Shown piece by piece: positions 10,983-18,625 of a stretch of 64,000 nt of DNA; within the stretch, counting starts at the first letter, position 1, and each line of letters starts with the position of its first letter. The translations under genes and the position numbers were made by a program. The stretch covers positions 2,621,501-2,685,500 of the forward strand of contig NZ_CP023344.1 of the NCBI RefSeq assembly GCF_002310495.1, read 5' to 3'. The DNA is from Nibricoccus aquaticus. GTDB taxonomy: Bacteria > Verrucomicrobiota > Verrucomicrobiia > Opitutales > Opitutaceae. The notes under the pieces were generated by a model, which saw only the letters and a program-made list of their open reading frames with translations, was not told the DNA's origin and searched no databases.

Positions 10983-12815
10983 TTAGCGACCTGAGAGCAT
11001 GTGTTTGAGCTGGGCGAAGGTGGCAGACATTTCGGCGCGGGAGGCGGACTTGTATTTCTCGGGTAGGAAGCGGCGGTCGGAGCAGGCGAGGACGGCGGCG
11101 AGTTCCTGGAGTGCGAGGAGGTTTCCGTCGAGCGGGTCGATGAATGAATCGACGGCGTCGCGGAGGTCGGCGAGCTGGACGTCGTGGTCGCGTTTGGCGA
11201 GGACGGCGCGTTCTTTGGCGCGTATCAGGATGGCCTCGACGTCGCTGCCGGTGAGCGAGCGCGAGCCGAGTTCGTTGCGCGCGTAGGCGATGATCTCGTC
11301 GGTGAGGGCGATTTTTTTCACGCGGCCGATGACGGTGAAGAGCTCTACGACTTCGTCAGGATTTTGCGCGGCGAAGAGCGGGACGCAGAGGCCGAAGCGG
11401 CCCTGGCGTTTGAGGTCGATCGCGAGAAGATCGGGGCGCGAGGTCATCGCGATCCAGAGTTCGCGGCCACGGAGAGAACTGTCGCCGAGGTGGGCGGCGA
11501 AGGCGGCGAAGACGCGGCTGGAGATGCCGCTGTCGCCATCGGCGGAGCGGTTGCCGAAGACGGCGTCGGCTTCGTCCACGACGACGATCACGGGGCCGAG
11601 CGCGCGGATTGTGAGGAGAATGCGCGCCTGCTGGCGTTCGGTTTCGCCGACCCATTTGGAGCGGAATTCGCCGATCTCGAGGACGGGCAGGCCGCAGTCG
11701 CTGGCGAAGCAATCGATGAGAAATGATTTGCCGACACCGACGCGGCCGGGGACGAGGACACCGCGTTCGAGGACGTCGTCCTTTTGATTTTTGATGAGCC
11801 AGGCGAGTTCGCGCAGGCGGGCTTTGGCGGCGGTGTGCGTGGCGACGTTTTCGAGGGAGACGCCGGGCTTGGGGTCTTTGAAGCGAACGAGACCCTGGCA
11901 GTAGTCTTCGATGAGGCGGCGTTTGCCGGCGGAGATGGCTTCGGGGGTGAGACGTTCGCCGGCGCGGAGGACGGTGACGAGGAGTTGCTCGATGCGCAGG
12001 AGGGCGAGGCCGGAGGTGCGCTTGGCTAGGTCGTCGGTCGAGAGATCTGTGGCGTCGGAAAGTTTTTTGCCGCCCGAGGCGCGGTCGAGCCAGCCGGAGG
12101 CGAGGAACTGGCGGCGCTCGGCGAGATCGGGAAGCGGGATGCGCACGGTGCCGATGTGCGGGTTTTGCACGAGGTCGGACTGAAGCTCGGCGGCGGTCTC
12201 GGTGACGAGGAGGACGCCGATGTCGCCGAGGTGGAGTTCGGGCGAGGCGGCCCATTTCAGGAGGGTGACGAGGGCGGCGCGTTCGTCGGCGGAGGCGCCG
12301 GATTCCTCGGAGGCGGGGATGATTTTTTCGGGGAAGTTGAGGACGAGCGTGACGCCACGGTCGCGGCCTTTTTCGTCGGCGGCGCGAAGGAAGAAACGGC
12401 GGAGGAGCGGGACGAGTTCGCCGAAAGCGCGGGGAGGACCGTCGATGTGGAAGCGGGTGCCCTCGACTTCGTCGAAGATCGCGAGCCATTCGAAGAAACG
12501 CTGCTGCATCGCGGGCGAGCCGAAGGAGAGGCCTTCGCCGATGTCGTAGAAGAGCAGATACGCGCGGTCGGCGAAGAGGCGGCGGGAGAGGAAGGCGGGG
12601 AGGGCGGCGTACTCGGGGGTGTTGCGCGTGGAGGCGATGGTTTCGGCGGGGACGGAGACGGGGAAGAGGTCGAAGATGTTTCCGTGCAGGAGAAAGAGGC
12701 TGTGCGCGCCGCTGTTCCAGAGACGGGCGAGTTCGGCGGCCCAGGGTGGGAGGGGGGCGAGCGAGGGAGATTTTAGCGGCTGCGCGGGTGCTGGGCTGGA
12801 GGCGGGCGATGACAT
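10983..12815 (-). CDS. Classical AAA+ ATPase with Ycf46-like architecture, PspA operon
   Basis: 610 residues. Residues about 28-300 look like a degenerate ATPase-type fold without a P-loop (SLFLLHGNIFDLF, GVTLVLNFPEKI, IPLPDLAERRQFL). Residues about 300-500 form an AAA+ domain with Walker A GRVGVGKS (357-364), a pore-loop-like segment FRSKWVGETE, Walker B VIVVVDEADAVF (409-420) and GDSGISSRVF. A second region of homology, LAIDLKRQGRF (arginine finger Arg473), places it in the classical AAA clade with Vps4 and FtsH. The inactive-then-active order and the GDSG-S-RVF motif resemble Ycf46 of chloroplasts and cyanobacteria. It is the last gene of the pspA operon. It may remodel or disassemble PspA polymers, but that is inference. 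Confidence 0.85.
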   Translation of the reverse strand: MSSPASSPAPAQPLKSPSLAPLPPWAAELARLWNSGAHSLFLLHGNIFDLFPVSVPAETIASTRNTPEYAALPAFLSRRLFADRAYLLFYDIGEGLSFGSPAMQQRFFEWLAIFDEVEGTRFHIDGPPRAFGELVPLLRRFFLRAADEKGRDRGVTLVLNFPEKIIPASEESGASADERAALVTLLKWAASPELHLGDIGVLLVTETAAELQSDLVQNPHIGTVRIPLPDLAERRQFLASGWLDRASGGKKLSDATDLSTDDLAKRTSGLALLRIEQLLVTVLRAGERLTPEAISAGKRRLIEDYCQGLVRFKDPKPGVSLENVATHTAAKARLRELAWLIKNQKDDVLERGVLVPGRVGVGKSFLIDCFASDCGLPVLEIGEFRSKWVGETERQQARILLTIRALGPVIVVVDEADAVFGNRSADGDSGISSRVFAAFAAHLGDSSLRGRELWIAMTSRPDLLAIDLKRQGRFGLCVPLFAAQNPDEVVELFTVIGRVKKIALTDEIIAYARNELGSRSLTGSDVEAILIRAKERAVLAKRDHDVQLADLRDAVDSFIDPLDGNLLALQELAAVLACSDRRFLPEKYKSASRAEMSATFAQLKHMLSGR

Positions 12816-12822
12816 TGGGATG

Positions 12823-12858
12823 GGACCTATAGGTCTTATGGGACTGATAGGACTTATA
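12823..12858. repeat. 36-bp nonamer array
   Basis: Four 9-bp units ggacctata, ggtcttatg, ggactgata, ggacttata lie just upstream of the AAA+ gene's start codon. Confidence 0.6.
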
Positions 12859-12866
12859 TCGGAGGG

Positions 12867-13796
12867 CTATTCGCTGACCGGGGTTTTTTGCGGAGGGCGC
12901 GGGGCGGTCGTAGTCGAGTAACCGACGCGGGTGGGGAGGTCGGGGAGATTGTTGGTGAGGTCTTTGAACTCGGTGAGTTCGGAGAGCCACTTGTTGGTCG
13001 CGGCGAGGTGTTCGATACTGAGGTCGATGCGGGCGCTGAGGGCGTCGGCGTTTTTGGCGGCGACGGCGTCGGCACGGATGAGTTTCACCTGTTCGACGAG
13101 GCGCTCTTGCTCGGAGCGGACGAGGTCGAGATTGCCCTGGGCTTGCTCGATGCGGCGGAGGCGTTGGCGGAGGGTTTCGAGGCGTTCGAGGCGGGAGGCG
13201 GCGAGGCGTTCTTTGGTGTCGAGGATGGGGGACGTCTTATTCGCTTTTTTGGCGGTCTCGATTTCGGCGGCGAGGGATTGGGTTTCGGCTTCGAGGGAGG
13301 CGACGAGTTCGGGGACGCGTTCCTTGCGTTCGGTCTCGAGGTAGACGTCGAGCGATTGCTCGATGGCCAACATGCGGAGGTAGGTCCACATGAGCTCGTC
13401 GAGTTTGCGGAGGCGGGAATCGAGATCGAGGCCGGTGGAGTTTTGGGCCTCGGTGGAGGCTTTTTCGATGTCGGCGCAGACGGCGGCAAGCTGGGCGTGG
13501 CGCTGGCGGCGCGCGGGGGAGAGATCGGCGAGGACGCGGTCTTGTTGCTGGTGAAAGTCGGCGAGGCGGGCGGCGGCTTCGAGGTCGCGGCGGCCTTGCG
13601 TATCCGAATCGATGGCACGGCGGAAGAAGCCGGCGTCGGGGAGGTAGACGAGGCCTAGCGCGTAGAGGGTGGCGCCGGCGAGGAGGCCGAGGGGTTCACC
13701 GCTGGCGAAGCCGAGGCCCAGCGTGAGGAGAGCGAGCCAGAGGTGGTGGCGGCTTTTCCAGAAGGCGCGGCGGTAGTTGGTCGGCTGGTCGGGCAA
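12867..13796 (-). CDS. Membrane-anchored coiled-coil protein in the pspA operon
   Basis: 309 residues. Two adjacent hydrophobic segments near residues 18-55 (LWLALLTLGLGFASG, LGLLAGATLYALGLVYL) are followed by a long, charged, Leu/Glu/Arg-rich region (about 60-285) with heptad character and a Pro-rich tail. I recognise no named family. The only possible starts are non-ATG: a TTG at 13796 lies 8 codons after an in-frame TAA. It lies between the binding-protein/OmpA gene and the AAA+ ATPase gene with short spacers. It may be the inner-membrane partner that recruits the ATPase or PspA. Confidence 0.75.
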   Translation of the reverse strand: MPDQPTNYRRAFWKSRHHLWLALLTLGLGFASGEPLGLLAGATLYALGLVYLPDAGFFRRAIDSDTQGRRDLEAAARLADFHQQQDRVLADLSPARRQRHAQLAAVCADIEKASTEAQNSTGLDLDSRLRKLDELMWTYLRMLAIEQSLDVYLETERKERVPELVASLEAETQSLAAEIETAKKANKTSPILDTKERLAASRLERLETLRQRLRRIEQAQGNLDLVRSEQERLVEQVKLIRADAVAAKNADALSARIDLSIEHLAATNKWLSELTEFKDLTNNLPDLPTRVGYSTTTAPRPPQKTPVSE

Positions 13797-13811
13797 GCGG
13801 TCGGAGTTTGG

Positions 13812-13993
13812 ACAGGATTAACAGGATGGACAGGATTAAGGCGGAGCGGCGACGGAGTTTTGCAGGAGGAAACTGAGGGAACGGAGAGGTGTCAGAGTGG
13901 CGGATACGGAAGCGGTGGTAGAAATTCGTCGGAAGGAAAACGAGTATGAGTGAGAGAACGATGCGGAGGGAAGCGGGGTGAGGGCACCCCCGC
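13812..13993. repeat. Nonamer array and hairpin between the OmpA-fusion and coiled-coil genes
   Basis: 13812-13838: acaggatta, acaggatgg, acaggatta. 13973-13993: GCGGGGTG/CACCCCCGC hairpin followed by CTACAACGGA. A close copy of this hairpin lies at 31456-31475. Confidence 0.5.
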
Positions 13994-14007
13994 CTACAAC
14001 GGAGGCG

Positions 14008-15696
14008 TTACTCGACTGTGAACCACTGGACTTCGACGCGGCGGTTTTTTTCGGGGTCGGGGCCGGCGGGTTCTTCCCAGCCGCGGCCAACGGTTTCGAG
14101 GCGGGTGGGTTCTACTTTGAGGCGTTCGATGAGGAGGCGGCGGATTTCGCCGGCGCGGTTTTTGGAGAGCTCCATGGATTTGAGAGCCATCTGGCGGACG
14201 AAGGCGTCGCCGCCTTGTTCGCGGAATTTATCGACGAGCGCATTATCCACGTGGCCGCGGAGGAGAATCGTGGAGCCGGGGCTAACTTGGAGAAGGCGGC
14301 GGATCGAATCGAGGTTGGTGAGGTTGTCCTGGCTCGTGAGATCGAGCTTGAAGGAGTTTGGCTCGAAGAGGAATCGGATGTCTTTGCTAAGGAGCGGATC
14401 GCGTTCGAGAGCGCCGCCGGCGGTGCTGCGGATCGGGGCGAGCGTGATTTGTTGTCCGGCGAAAGCGCCGGCGGTTTTGAGGGCTTCGAGGTGCTGCGGT
14501 GCCATGTAGCGCTCGGCGTCGACGGGTTTGTCGATGAGCGAACCGTAGGCGAGAATCGCGGAGGAATAGATGCCGCTGAAGCTGCCGGCGGCGTCGATTG
14601 CGCCGGAGTAGAACGCTAGATTCTCGGGGAGGTTGGAGAAGTGGACTTTGGCGAGCTCGGCCTGGGTTTGGGCTTTGTCCCACTTGAAGGTTTTGCCGAT
14701 CAGATCGAGGTGCGGCGCGGGATTGTCGCGGACGAGGCGGTTGCCTTCTAGGATGCCGTCGACGAGGCCGGCGACTTGCGCGGGGTTGGCGGTGGCGAAG
14801 CCTTTGTTGACGACGAGAATGTCGGCGATGATGAGGAGATTTTTATTGGTCGTGAGCTGGGTGGCGGCGCCGTTGGAGGCTTCGACGACCTCGGTGGTTT
14901 TTGGGGCCCAGGTGACGCAGCCGGCGAGGCGGGTGCCGCCGGACTGGAGTTCTTTGAGGAAGATGTCGCCGGCGGCGAAGGCGTCGGCGGCGAAGAGGAG
15001 GTTGACCTTGTCGGGCGCAGGGCGGTCGGACGGGCTGGAGAGGACGTTGACGCCGAGGCCGGCTTCTTGCGTGAGGTAGCGGAGGAAGAAGTCGGCCTCG
15101 GTGAACTGGGCGGTGACGAGGGTCCGGCCCTTGAGGTCGTTGATGCGGCGTATTTCTTTTCTGACGACAAGGCCGTCGGCACCGCGGGAGAAGCCGATCT
15201 GCACGGGGGCGGTGACCTGGAAGTTGCGACAGTGGGCGGCGAGGACGTCGACCGTGGTGGCGGAGGCGGCGAGGCGGCCGGTGTTGAGGGCGGGCCAGCT
15301 TTCTTCCTCGGAGAGTTTGATGCGGACTTTGAAGCCGTGCTTGCGGAAGAAGTAGGAGTTTTCGGAGGGATCGAGTCCGCCGTTGGCGACGACGATGCCG
15401 GCGTAACCGGCGTACTCGGAGAGTTCGAGGTCGAGGGTGTTGTCCTTCGCGATGTAGGTGCCGGCGGGCGGGAGGAGCGGGCAGGTCGTGAGGGGCTCGA
15501 TGAAGTCGGCGGGATCGAGGGCGGCTTTGCCTGCGGTGCCGTTGGCGGCGGAGGAGCCGGAGTTGCTGGCTGAAGCGCTGGAAGTGGCGGTGGATGGCGC
15601 AGCGTTGGGCTGGGCTTTATTGAGCCACTTGTAGGCGCCGAGTCCGGCGATTGCCAGGATGAGGAGGGTGAGGACGAATTTTCCGCGGCCGGTCAT
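14008..15696 (-). CDS. Periplasmic binding-protein / OmpA fusion of the pspA operon
   Basis: 562 residues. A single N-terminal membrane anchor (FVLTLLILAIAGLGAYKWL) is followed by a low-complexity Ala/Ser linker. A type II substrate-binding domain (about 75-390, with YAGIVVANGGLDPSENSYFF and LKGRTLVTAQFTEADFFLRYL) resembles the phosphate/NMT1-type binding proteins. The C-terminal OmpA-like domain (about 425-562) contains ILLRGHVDN and AGEIRRLLIE and ends ENRRVEVQW-like (here EKNRRVEVQW). It would be anchored in the inner membrane with its OmpA domain able to bind peptidoglycan. No permease or ATPase of an importer is nearby, so a sensing or structural role is more likely than transport. It lies between the small membrane protein and coiled-coil genes. 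Confidence 0.85.
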   Translation of the reverse strand: MTGRGKFVLTLLILAIAGLGAYKWLNKAQPNAAPSTATSSASASNSGSSAANGTAGKAALDPADFIEPLTTCPLLPPAGTYIAKDNTLDLELSEYAGYAGIVVANGGLDPSENSYFFRKHGFKVRIKLSEEESWPALNTGRLAASATTVDVLAAHCRNFQVTAPVQIGFSRGADGLVVRKEIRRINDLKGRTLVTAQFTEADFFLRYLTQEAGLGVNVLSSPSDRPAPDKVNLLFAADAFAAGDIFLKELQSGGTRLAGCVTWAPKTTEVVEASNGAATQLTTNKNLLIIADILVVNKGFATANPAQVAGLVDGILEGNRLVRDNPAPHLDLIGKTFKWDKAQTQAELAKVHFSNLPENLAFYSGAIDAAGSFSGIYSSAILAYGSLIDKPVDAERYMAPQHLEALKTAGAFAGQQITLAPIRSTAGGALERDPLLSKDIRFLFEPNSFKLDLTSQDNLTNLDSIRRLLQVSPGSTILLRGHVDNALVDKFREQGGDAFVRQMALKSMELSKNRAGEIRRLLIERLKVEPTRLETVGRGWEEPAGPDPEKNRRVEVQWFTVE

Positions 15697-15702
15697 AGTG
15701 AG

Positions 15703-15810
15703 AAGAGTGAAAGGTGATGAGTGAGGAATGAAAGGGGATGAAGAGGGCGGACGAGACTCGGAAGGAGCGGAGTCGGAGTTCGGACTGGATTAACGGGAGT
15801 TACAGGATTG
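15703..15810. repeat. Heptamer (28 bp) and nonamer arrays in the pspA operon
   Basis: 15703-15730: aagagtg, aaaggtg, atgagtg, aggaatg. 15784-15810: actggatta, acgggagtt, acaggattg. They lie upstream of the OmpA-fusion start codon. Confidence 0.55.
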
Positions 15811-15832
15811 GGCGGATCGCAGGCGTGAGTGA

Positions 15833-16141
15833 TTACGTGGTCTGGCGAGGGGCTTTTTTGATGAGGAGGATGAAGATAAAAGAGAGTACGGAGAGGCTGG
15901 TTGCGATCCATGCGACGCCTCTCCCTAGACCGCGCTGCACGTTCAGTTCTTTGTCGCTGATTCGCAGGTCGGCCCAAGCCTTCTTGATTTCAGGAGACGC
16001 GCTTTGCGGAGAGATGAGGCGCTCTGCGTCCTGCTGTGCTTGGTAATAGCGCTTTTCTTGATCGGCGGCTTTTTGGAGTTTCAAACCGAACAAGGTACAG
16101 AGGATGGAAAGTGTGAGAAAAATGATCGCGGCGAGCTTCAT
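15833..16141 (-). CDS. Small two-helix membrane protein
   Basis: 102 residues. A hydrophobic N-terminal segment (AAIIFLTLSILCTLFGL) and a second near the C-terminus (VAWIATSLSVLSFIFILLI) flank a charged soluble segment of about 55 residues. No family recognised. It starts 3 bp after the DUF4177 gene stops, so it is translationally linked in the pspA operon. The predicted hairpin topology would expose the middle part on one side of the inner membrane. Confidence 0.75.
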   Translation of the reverse strand: MKLAAIIFLTLSILCTLFGLKLQKAADQEKRYYQAQQDAERLISPQSASPEIKKAWADLRISDKELNVQRGLGRGVAWIATSLSVLSFIFILLIKKAPRQTT

Positions 16142-16144
16142 GAC

Positions 16145-16339
16145 TTAAACCAAGGGGCGTTTGAAGATGGCGGTGACTTCGCGGGTGTCGCCGCTGTTGG
16201 TCCATGAAAGGATGTTCACGAGTTCCCAGCCGTCGGCTCCGTAGGCGTTGAGGCGCGCGTGGAAATCCTTGTGATCCAGTTTTGTGCTAAGCAGTCCGGC
16301 GGAATCGGCGACGAAGGTTGCGTATTCAAATTTCTGCAT
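16145..16339 (-). CDS. DUF4177-type small protein
   Basis: 64 residues beginning MQKFEYATFV and containing DGWELVNILSW near residues 36-46. This KFEYKVV...GWELV pattern is typical of DUF4177 proteins, small cytosolic proteins of unknown function. The ATG at 16339 is chosen because the conserved domain begins there; an upstream extension would be unrelated sequence overlapping a palindromic repeat. It lies 131 bp after pspA and directly before the small membrane protein gene. Confidence 0.75.
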   Translation of the reverse strand: MQKFEYATFVADSAGLLSTKLDHKDFHARLNAYGADGWELVNILSWTNSGDTREVTAIFKRPLV

Positions 16340-16423
16340 GTCGTGAAAGAGTGGAAAGCGGGCTTGGCGTGAGTGGTTCGATGCGAGGTCGAGCCCTACG
16401 GGGAAAAGCGGGCGGTGGCGAAG

Positions 16424-16454
16424 AACGCGCACGGAGTGCGCGTTCCACCTCGGA
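16424..16454. repeat. REP-like palindrome with CCACCTCGGA tail
   Basis: AACGCGCAC-GGA-GTGCGCGTT (16424-16444) followed by CCACCTCGGA, in the spacer between pspA and the DUF4177 gene. The same structure, in reverse orientation, ends the window at 63961-63991. Confidence 0.65.
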
Positions 16455-16470
16455 GCCGGCGGGCCTAGTA

Positions 16471-17226
16471 TTAAGACTCGGCGATTTTTTGGCGCTCGGG
16501 GGCGGCGGCGGTGGGTGTGGTGGCGGCGGGTTGCACCATGCCCATTTTCTTTTGGTATTCCTTGAAGAGCTGGTTGCCGCGGGCGCGTCGCATTTCCTGC
16601 TGGCGTTGGATGTTCGAGCCCATCTCTTTCGCGAGATCGAGGGTGGCGCGCATCTGGCCTTCGCCGCTGGCGGCGGACTCGCGGAGTTGTTGCATGGATT
16701 GTCCCATCTCGCCGCCCATCATGCCTTGGAGTTCGGTGATCGAACCTTTCATGAGGCCGGAGAGTTGTTCGAGGGAGCGGCCGACGGCGACCTTGGCTTT
16801 GACGGCCTGGAACTCGCGTTCGAACTTTTGGATTTCGCGTAGGCTGTTGGCGATGATCTCGGTGTTTTGCTGGTAGAGTTGTTCGAGGCCGGCGAGCTGG
16901 GACTGGTTGTCGGCGATGTCTTGATCGAGGGTGGCGAGCTCTTCTGCGAAGTGGGCGCCGTTGACCTCGTCGTTGGCGGCGGCGGCGGTCTGGAGCATGC
17001 CCTGGATTTCCTGCTTCTGGCGCTCCTGGCGTTTGATCTGGTCTTTGAGGAGGGCGATCTGGCCGGCGAGTTGTCCGTTGGCGTAGTGGGCTTTGTCGGC
17101 CTTGGCCTTGGAGTCTCGGATGCCGCGTTCGACGACGGCCTGGTTGATGGCATCGGTCTCGGTGGCTTTTTCGGCGGCGAGACCGAGCCAGATGAAGACG
17201 CGTTTGATGGCGCGGAAGATTCCCAT
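16471..17226 (-). CDS. pspA: PspA/IM30 family envelope-stress protein
   Basis: 251 residues. An N-terminal amphipathic segment MGIFRAIKRVFIWLG binds membranes in this family. It is followed by long helices (about 20-220), rich in Gln, Lys and Glu, that make up the PspA/Vipp1 coiled-coil hairpin (for example QIALLKDQIKRQERQKQEIQ), and a low-complexity tail. PspA/IM30/Vipp1 proteins belong to the ESCRT-III superfamily and polymerise on damaged inner membranes. There are no PspB/C/F genes nearby. Instead it leads an operon with DUF4177, a small membrane protein, a binding-protein/OmpA fusion, a coiled coil and an AAA+ ATPase. Confidence 0.9.
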   Translation of the reverse strand: MGIFRAIKRVFIWLGLAAEKATETDAINQAVVERGIRDSKAKADKAHYANGQLAGQIALLKDQIKRQERQKQEIQGMLQTAAAANDEVNGAHFAEELATLDQDIADNQSQLAGLEQLYQQNTEIIANSLREIQKFEREFQAVKAKVAVGRSLEQLSGLMKGSITELQGMMGGEMGQSMQQLRESAASGEGQMRATLDLAKEMGSNIQRQQEMRRARGNQLFKEYQKKMGMVQPAATTPTAAAPERQKIAES

Positions 17227-17710: not shown

Positions 17711-17744
17711 AAAATAAAAATGGCCGGGCGCGTGGGGCCCGGCC
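17711..17744 (-). terminator. Terminator of the RRM protein gene
   Basis: GGCCGGGC (17722-17729) pairs with GCCCGGCC (17737-17744). On the minus strand it is followed by ATTTTTATTTTC. It lies 49 bp past the stop of the RNA-binding protein gene. Confidence 0.8.
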
Positions 17745-18143: not shown

Positions 18144-18375
18144 ATACGTTTTTTCCCGCCGCCGTTTTTTCCCGCCGTTCCCGTGCATCGAGTTTCAAAT
18201 CATCACTGAACTTTCCCGCTCATCGACAATTCACCGTGCTAAGAATCAAACTGCGACGAAAGGGAACGTGGGCGCGTTGAGGGGCTGCGCAAGAGCGGAG
18301 AATGCCGGTTTCTGGCATCTAGGGCGGTGGTGTTTGACTACGCAAATTGGGCGGCGGGCGAGCGGAGTTTGCGCG

Positions 18376-18456
18376 AATGACCAATGACCAATGACCAATG
18401 ACCAATGACCAATGACCAATGACCAATGACCAATGACCAATGACCAATGACCAATG
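18376..18456. repeat. Tandem heptanucleotide repeat (aatgacc), about 11.6 copies
   Basis: 81 bp of perfect 7-bp repeats. A related 28-bp copy with substitutions lies at 24729-24756. It is in the gap between the RRM gene and the chorismatase gene. Frames through it translate to a repetitive HWSLVIG peptide that I regard as non-coding. Confidence 0.95.
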
Positions 18457-18625
18457 CGCTGGCGCGGTTAGCAGGGAAGTGGGTGGTCGGGAAGTTATCA
18501 CTTGAGGCTGAACGGAGGGGGTGTTTTGTCCGGTGCTGAAATCGATTCATTGTGGAAAAAACGCAGACTGAAACAGCCTTAGGGAAAACTGGCTCTCGTT
18601 GCCGAACGGGGAGCGGACTTTGAGC

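Follow-up and report, generated by a model that had tools for sequence, protein, structure and literature searches.

In response to envelope stress, proteins of the PspA family polymerise on the inner membrane; they share a superfamily with ESCRT-III of the endosomal sorting complex required for transport (ESCRT). Here, we describe a divergent PspA-like gene of the bacterium Nibricoccus aquaticus and the tandem AAA+ ATPase gene that accompanies it, both of which lie in a 64,000-nucleotide stretch of contig NZ_CP023344.1 (positions 2,621,501 to 2,685,500 of the forward strand; hereafter the window, in whose numbering its features are located). The closest described systems are the operons reported by Ravi et al. 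2024 (PMC11237479), in which PspA stands next to a two-domain AAA+ protein, inactive in its first domain and active in its second (e.g., OGG56892.1). According to this source, the operons at times include an ABC ATPase, a permease and a PBPB-OmpA protein, the ABC ATPase and permease may occur in longer operons, and an ATP-dependent remodelling, likened to Snf7/Vps4, is proposed. Thus, both the PspA/AAA+ association and the ESCRT analogy are already published in that source, and since it describes the pairing as well as the Snf7/Vps4 comparison, the central idea of an earlier reading of this DNA (the original prediction), a possible bacterial ESCRT-III/Vps4-style module, was already in print.

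Liu et al. 2021 (PMC8281802) state that the C-terminal MIT-interacting motif (MIM) of ESCRT-III associates with Vps4, and leave it unclear whether PspF fills the Vps4 role for PspA or whether Vipp1 has an equivalent ATPase; according to PMC11188069, only archaea and eukaryotes have ESCRT systems in which genes for ESCRT-III and Vps4 are both present. We propose that the module found here acts like ESCRT-III and Vps4 with its own Cdc48/p97-like tandem AAA+ motor, a reading to which we assign a probability of roughly 0.55. The best support for a direct contact between the two proteins is a conserved C-terminal tail of PspA with a putative docking role, which seems to be new: section 18 of PMC11237479 does not mention it, and a search of the open-licence part of PMC found no publication on the tail or on a test of the PspA/AAA+ pair (this search did not extend to subscription literature or to supplementary files such as Text S2.2 and Table S3 of PMC11237479).

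The PspA/AAA+ module in related genomes

The PspA-like gene (16471-17226; 251 aa; minus strand, as are all genes of the run and their motifs) encodes a divergent protein of the ESCRT-III superfamily. It scored 14.5 bits against PspA_IM30 (PF04012), below the gathering cut-off of 33.9, and when the complete genome was searched with PF04012 at E 1e-3 no gene matched, this one included; a relative (L085) reaches 17.2 bits. A chain of two profile comparisons with hhalign leads to PspA all the same. The window family gave 94.8 with a second PspA subfamily (over the helical core), and that subfamily, whose members exceed the PF04012 threshold in 7 of 10 genomes, gave 96.9 with ordinary PspA. Compared directly, the window family and ordinary PspA reached only 33.5, and against a mixed PspA set the profile score was 96.0; reversed profiles (0.5-0.8) and the coiled-coil family (0.4) served as controls. 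Because of this two-step chain, and despite the sub-threshold Pfam score, we treat the product as a divergent PspA, so that the label of the original prediction stands by profile comparison but not by the Pfam cut-off. A plasmid search with the PspA-like protein gave no match.

In scanned genomes, relatives of the PspA-like gene (67-85% identity) turned up at 57 loci, mostly from Verrucomicrobiota or its families. Of these loci, 33 extend for 7 kb or more on the downstream side of PspA; 24 of the 33 contain the genes for a coiled-coil protein and for the AAA+ protein, and the other 9 contain neither. Synteny of the AAA+ gene with pspA in relatives, on which the original prediction had staked its idea, was thus found in these 24 long loci, with a co-occurrence that goes beyond linkage (see below). 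ABC permease and ATPase genes lie in between in 19 of the 24 and not in 5. The gene for a binding-protein/OmpA fusion comes in two subtypes among the 33 long loci, 4 of which have no such gene; ABC genes accompany the window's subtype in 0/10 loci and the other subtype in 19/19. A vWA gene precedes PspA in 32 of the 51 loci that reach 0.9 kb or more upstream of it. The window's own DUF4177 and two-helix genes recur in 0/57 related loci within 3 kb after PspA; they are local additions outside the conserved module, and the notion of all six genes as a conserved unit had to be abandoned. The conserved module is one of four genes, encoding the PspA-like protein, the binding-protein/OmpA fusion, the membrane-anchored coiled coil and the tandem AAA+ protein, while the vWA gene and, often, the ABC transporter belong to a wider module and are missing here. 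Since the ABC and vWA genes are missing and the DUF4177 and two-helix genes are absent from the related loci, we regard the arrangement in the window as a trimmed variant of the module with two local genes.

The co-occurrence of PspA and AAA+ exceeds mere linkage. In a phylum sample, the PspA-like gene, a close AAA+ and a close coiled coil were found in the identical 5 of 288 genomes (Fisher p 6e-11 for the PspA-like gene against close AAA+), and the 8 genomes with any coiled-coil match all fall within the 15 with an AAA+ match. Among the 9 long loci without AAA+, 8 belong to genomes that encode AAA+ elsewhere, with L057 as the exception. Counting every locus without AAA+ in sight, the figure is 19 of 23 genomes (five of the original 28 had been chosen for AAA+ on the locus and were excluded), yet many of these 23 loci end soon after PspA and the 8/9 count from the long loci is to be preferred. 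A second AAA+ clade (27-33% identity) behaves in the same way: PF04012 PspA was detected at E 1e-3 in 9 of its 10 genomes (7 above the cut-off), beside AAA+ in 3 of the 9, against a baseline of 6/59 genomes in the phylum sample. In a class sample, 9 genomes had both, 1 AAA+ only, 2 PspA only and 176 neither (p 8e-13), with five window-type genomes counted under "neither". In a second phylum, apparently Planctomycetota, which includes the L062 genome, AAA+ was found in 36/199 genomes, and PspA in the fetched stretch of 15 of these 36 AAA+ loci.

The PspA tail and the AAA+ protein

In the conservation map, the helical core of the window's PspA is followed by a variable linker rich in Ala, Pro and Thr (residues 232-244; 16495-16533) and then by the C-terminal peptide RQKIAES (residues 245-251; 16474-16494), which we propose as the ATPase docking tail. 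Within the window clade, a variable linker and then [RK]Q[KR][IV].E at the C-terminus were found in 57 of 59 distinct records (50 distinct records, all with the tail, left from 55 rows once 5 duplicate loci are discounted, and 9 loci read separately, 7 with it); of the two exceptions, L083 stops early and L093 is cut by a contig end. Two other PspA groups partnered by AAA+ carry a linker and then [MIL]GP in 19 of 23 proteins, the remaining four reading MAP, MGQ or LGL or ending at MG. Left out of the 23 were L177, the window-type L145, and L122-L132, which repeat genomes already counted. Six of the 23 PspA are encoded on contigs other than the one bearing their genome's AAA+, and [MIL]GP is present in 5 of these 6. 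By contrast, it occurs in 0/10 control PspA, taken from six genomes, five of them without a listed AAA+ match, and shuffled tails would give it in 0.9 of 23. The stricter pattern [KR].[MIL]GP was met in 15/23 against 0.08 expected; a loose one, [MIL][GA][PQL], fitted 23/23 and was not used, because 8.2 matches are expected by shuffling and 2/10 controls also fit.

Among 650 open reading frames (ORFs) of 54 loci, the strict tail was found in 13, all of them PspA, and [MIL]GP within the last 25 residues in 21, comprising 16 PspA and 5 others, in a scan that overlooked a number of PspA genes, those of L113 and L114 among them, at the ORF-calling stage. In the two nearest PspA relatives without AAA+ (G033 and G051) the tail is missing. 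One PspA (L160:2377-3189) bears the K-x-M-G-P motif twice, as one might expect of a repeated docking site. The tail shares its position and form with the ESCRT-III peptide that recruits Vps4, although the MIM of ESCRT-III differs from the tail described here. As the best support for direct contact between PspA and AAA+, the conserved tail suggests that the two proteins touch.

The AAA+ gene (10983-12815; 610 aa) matches Pfam AAA above the cut-off (E=7e-18, 65.8 bits). The product consists of a first AAA domain (about residues 20-305, from Pfam, alignment and model) that is degenerate and lacks the Walker motifs, and an active second domain of the classical type (about residues 306-560), followed by C-terminal helices. 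The latter shows the features of the classical AAA clade, namely Walker A and B, an aromatic pore loop and a two-arginine finger. An alignment of 33 sequences that span several clades shows no variation at the Walker A glycines and lysine (motif GRVGVGKS, residues 357-364; 11724-11747), at pore-loop residues W388 and G390 (motif KWVGE, residues 387-391; 11643-11657), at the DEAD of Walker B (VVVVDEAD, residues 410-417; 11565-11588) or at both arginines of the finger (RQGR, R470 and R473; 11397-11408). The pore loop is, we presume, of the substrate-threading type. Alignments A1-A3 took 29/31, 33/43 and 26/52 available sequences, with 29 rows for the coiled coil and 33 for AAA+.

A structure model of the AAA+ protein (predicted local distance difference test, pLDDT, 89.3) matches Rix7 across both domains from residue 20 onward (Z 23.8, 470 residues, root-mean-square deviation 6.3), and NVL and p97, which are also tandem AAA proteins, align through both domains as well. 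Because of this superposition on tandem AAA proteins, the first domain is, as modelled, an AAA domain without ATPase motifs. A sequence-level repeat of the two domains was considered and dropped (hhalign 3.0 against 0.2 reversed), so that the claim rests on the model. Both the inactive-then-active order and the KRQGRF arginine-finger region put forward in the original prediction are borne out, the former by alignment and model in agreement, the latter by the invariance of its arginines.

The second domain of the model matches FIGNL1, spastin and Vps4 (Z 22-23); VIA-align covers only chains ranked by Foldseek, and absence of a family from its list is uninformative. By sequence, the nearest solved chains are VCP-like/Cdc48 and AFG2. 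Pfam searches at E 0.1 found neither an MIT domain, the N-terminal half modelling as an AAA domain instead, nor a Vps4_C domain, and the score with NCBIfam CdvC, 32.1 bits, falls short of the cut-off of 650. Because MIT and Vps4_C were not found, we do not file the AAA+ protein under Vps4; it is not a member of that family. Nothing named Ycf46 came up in a general NCBIfam scan or a plasmid search with the AAA+ protein. Distant AAA+ relatives (24-25% identity) are carried by three Paenibacillaceae plasmids (L108, L109 and L110), where no PspA appears among the annotated AAA+ neighbours, in gene tables that are incomplete; on two of these plasmids the relative lies near DUF262 and nrnB-type genes.

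The coiled-coil gene (12867-13796; 309 aa, TTG start) encodes a protein with a positive N-terminus, modelled (pLDDT 90.6) as two short hydrophobic helices, residues 15-31 and 34-53, followed by long helices, which suggests a cytoplasmic tether. Its model had no significant fold match in Foldseek (best E 0.1), and its similarity to a PspA hairpin (VIA Z 9.2) is inside the background range of helical bundles. A role as a second ESCRT-III subunit was also considered and is unsupported by profiles (hhalign to PspA sets 0.7-1.3). The binding-protein/OmpA fusion (14008-15696; 562 aa) matches Pfam OmpA (1.6e-10) and NMT1 (2.3e-5), both above cut-offs, and is predicted to be a periplasmic substrate-binding domain that is probably anchored at its N-terminus.

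Proposed mechanism and alternatives

The mechanism that we favour starts from observed gene content and order, linked and unlinked co-occurrence, ATPase motifs and tail conservation, and from a modelled tandem AAA fold. The window's PspA would polymerise at the inner membrane under envelope stress, and its C-terminal peptide, held on the linker (RQKIAE here, K-x-[MIL]-G-P in the sister groups), would dock on the AAA+ ring. PspA subunits would then be threaded by the pore loop of the second, active AAA domain, and the polymer would thus be remodelled or recycled. The coiled coil with its two transmembrane helices may keep the ATPase at the inner membrane, while the anchored fusion protein may read the periplasm and the cell wall; in many relatives this putative sensor would still be linked to the permease and ATPase of an ABC transporter, both of which the window operon is without. 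Since the tail resembles the Vps4-recruiting peptide of ESCRT-III in position and form, ATPase-driven remodelling of PspA becomes directly testable, and with a dedicated PspA motor and a short docking tail the question of the Vps4 role could be reduced to binding and disassembly assays. Such a motor may also exemplify convergent evolution towards membrane remodelling powered by an ATPase. A bolder version holds that Verrucomicrobiota and the second phylum (apparently Planctomycetota) possess a true functional equivalent of ESCRT-III/Vps4, in which a Cdc48-like tandem motor unfolds PspA polymers via a degron-like tail. We give it slightly less than an even chance; if true, ATPase-controlled PspA could be predicted in any genome from the tail, which would serve as their sequence signature.

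Several observations weigh against the ESCRT-like reading. In the second phylum, 20 of the 36 AAA+ loci lack PspA in the fetched stretch (some contigs end early), and L177 has only a 24-bit PspA match that overlaps the AAA+ frame. The p values given above overstate the evidence, because the sampled sequences are related by descent. As to the tail, the [MIL]GP pattern was composed after the tails had been viewed, the control genome G203 (source of two of the 10 controls) has a distant AAA+ match, and the closest-relative control (GP-like tail in 9/9 against 0/2, p 0.018) consists of two genomes of one genus. The window tail cannot be proved to be the same motif as the GP tail, and L057, a long PspA contig, keeps its tail while AAA+ was not found in its genome at E 1e-20. 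Finally, AAA+ relatives of 25-33% identity (L036, L161, L174, L175 and L176) adjoin ABC ATPase, permease or binding-protein genes, and PspA is not in the fetched stretch of any of them. This neighbourhood is a third context of the ATPase family, and because of it PspA may not be the sole client of AAA+.

The same five loci, as well as the ABC genes in 19 of the 24 linked loci, would suit an AAA+ that mainly services an envelope transporter/sensor complex (binding-protein/OmpA, ABC permease and ATPase), with PspA as a co-regulated, membrane-protecting passenger. We consider this unlikely, since the co-occurrence with PspA persists when the genes are unlinked, the window genes neither include nor adjoin ABC genes, and AAA+ and PspA stand together with no transporter gene detected in the stretch in L146, L149, L157, L164-L167 and L169. 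The conserved tail and the pairing could also be read the other way round, with PspA regulating the ATPase rather than being its substrate. E. coli PspA binds and inhibits the AAA+ activator PspF, and by this precedent the tail would clamp the ATPase until it is released by stress. Such an arrangement is improbable to a similar degree: PspF belongs to a different AAA clade and has a DNA-binding domain, whereas here the pore loop is presumably one that threads substrates and the tail, in the fashion of ESCRT-III, is carried by a flexible linker. Moreover, PspA binds PspF through its N-terminal part, according to PMC6003685.

It is also conceivable that the tail binds another partner, be it the vWA protein, an SPFH-type protein or a membrane lipid, and that its link to AAA+ reflects shared membership in the module only. 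The frequency of the upstream vWA gene and the tail retained in L057 would agree with this, but the window genome keeps the tail while having no vWA homologue at E 1e-3, and the tail is also found in PspA beside AAA+ where neither vWA nor a transporter was detected. We therefore rate it as very unlikely, lower still than the two preceding explanations, and retain ESCRT-like remodelling of PspA by the tandem AAA+ as our preferred reading.

Local genes and comparison with known systems

All six minus-strand genes named in the original prediction were found in the ORF list. The two local ones lie between PspA and the fusion gene: a two-helix membrane protein (15833-16141; 102 aa) and DUF4177 (16145-16432; Pfam 1.6e-8, above cut-off), the listed GTG start of which is probably too early, with the ATG at 16339 as a better fit. 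The six genes, with gaps of 3 to 211 bases, may form one operon; no sigma-70-like promoter was found. A terminator-like hairpin at 17722-17744 (minus strand, 17744-17722), 3' of the upstream RRM gene, may part that gene from the PspA genes; it is a consensus match only, and the number of terminator-like sites (12 found, against 8.9 expected) does not exceed chance. A tandem repeat that reads VIGHWSL in one frame (18246-18501) lies between the RRM gene and the gene that follows. A moved or decayed vWA gene was considered, but neither the PspA-to-RRM interval nor the rest of the window gave a significant match (best E 0.11). An example of the vWA protein in a relative (L023:12644-13363) has the sequence DTSGSM and a probable signal peptide. 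In some ABC-type loci, the coiled-coil gene is immediately preceded by one for a protein of ~190 aa with no Pfam family, probably a multi-pass membrane protein (L046:8238-8819; also L056, L070, L081 and L097).

With the classical Psp system (PspABC, PspF) the locus shares the PspA family, and its AAA+ protein is from a different clade. PspB, PspC and PspF are not among the window genes, as had been noted originally, and PF04012 has no match elsewhere in the genome. Vipp1/IM30 is a member of the PspA family with a flexible C-terminal extension (PMC8281802), which differs from the window tail. The resemblance is closer to the operons of PMC11237479: the window has PspA, an AAA+ protein in inactive-then-active order and a PBPB-OmpA fusion, OGG56892.1 being compared by its description. 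Unlike the longer of those operons, it is without an ABC ATPase and permease (in the ORF list and Pfam scan, no ABC genes lie among or directly beside the window genes), a difference that is not strictly defining, and it adds two local genes and a coiled-coil transmembrane protein, perhaps the 'Snf7 with TM' of that source.

Like ESCRT-III/Vps4 of eukaryotes and archaeal CdvB/CdvC, the locus pairs a polymer protein of the ESCRT-III superfamily with a classical AAA ATPase. A C-terminal peptide on a flexible linker and a W-containing pore loop are further features that the two have in common. Unlike Vps4, the ATPase here is a tandem AAA protein with a degenerate first domain; neither MIT nor Vps4_C was found in the protein, and by sequence it is nearest to the VCP/Cdc48-type and AFG2 proteins.

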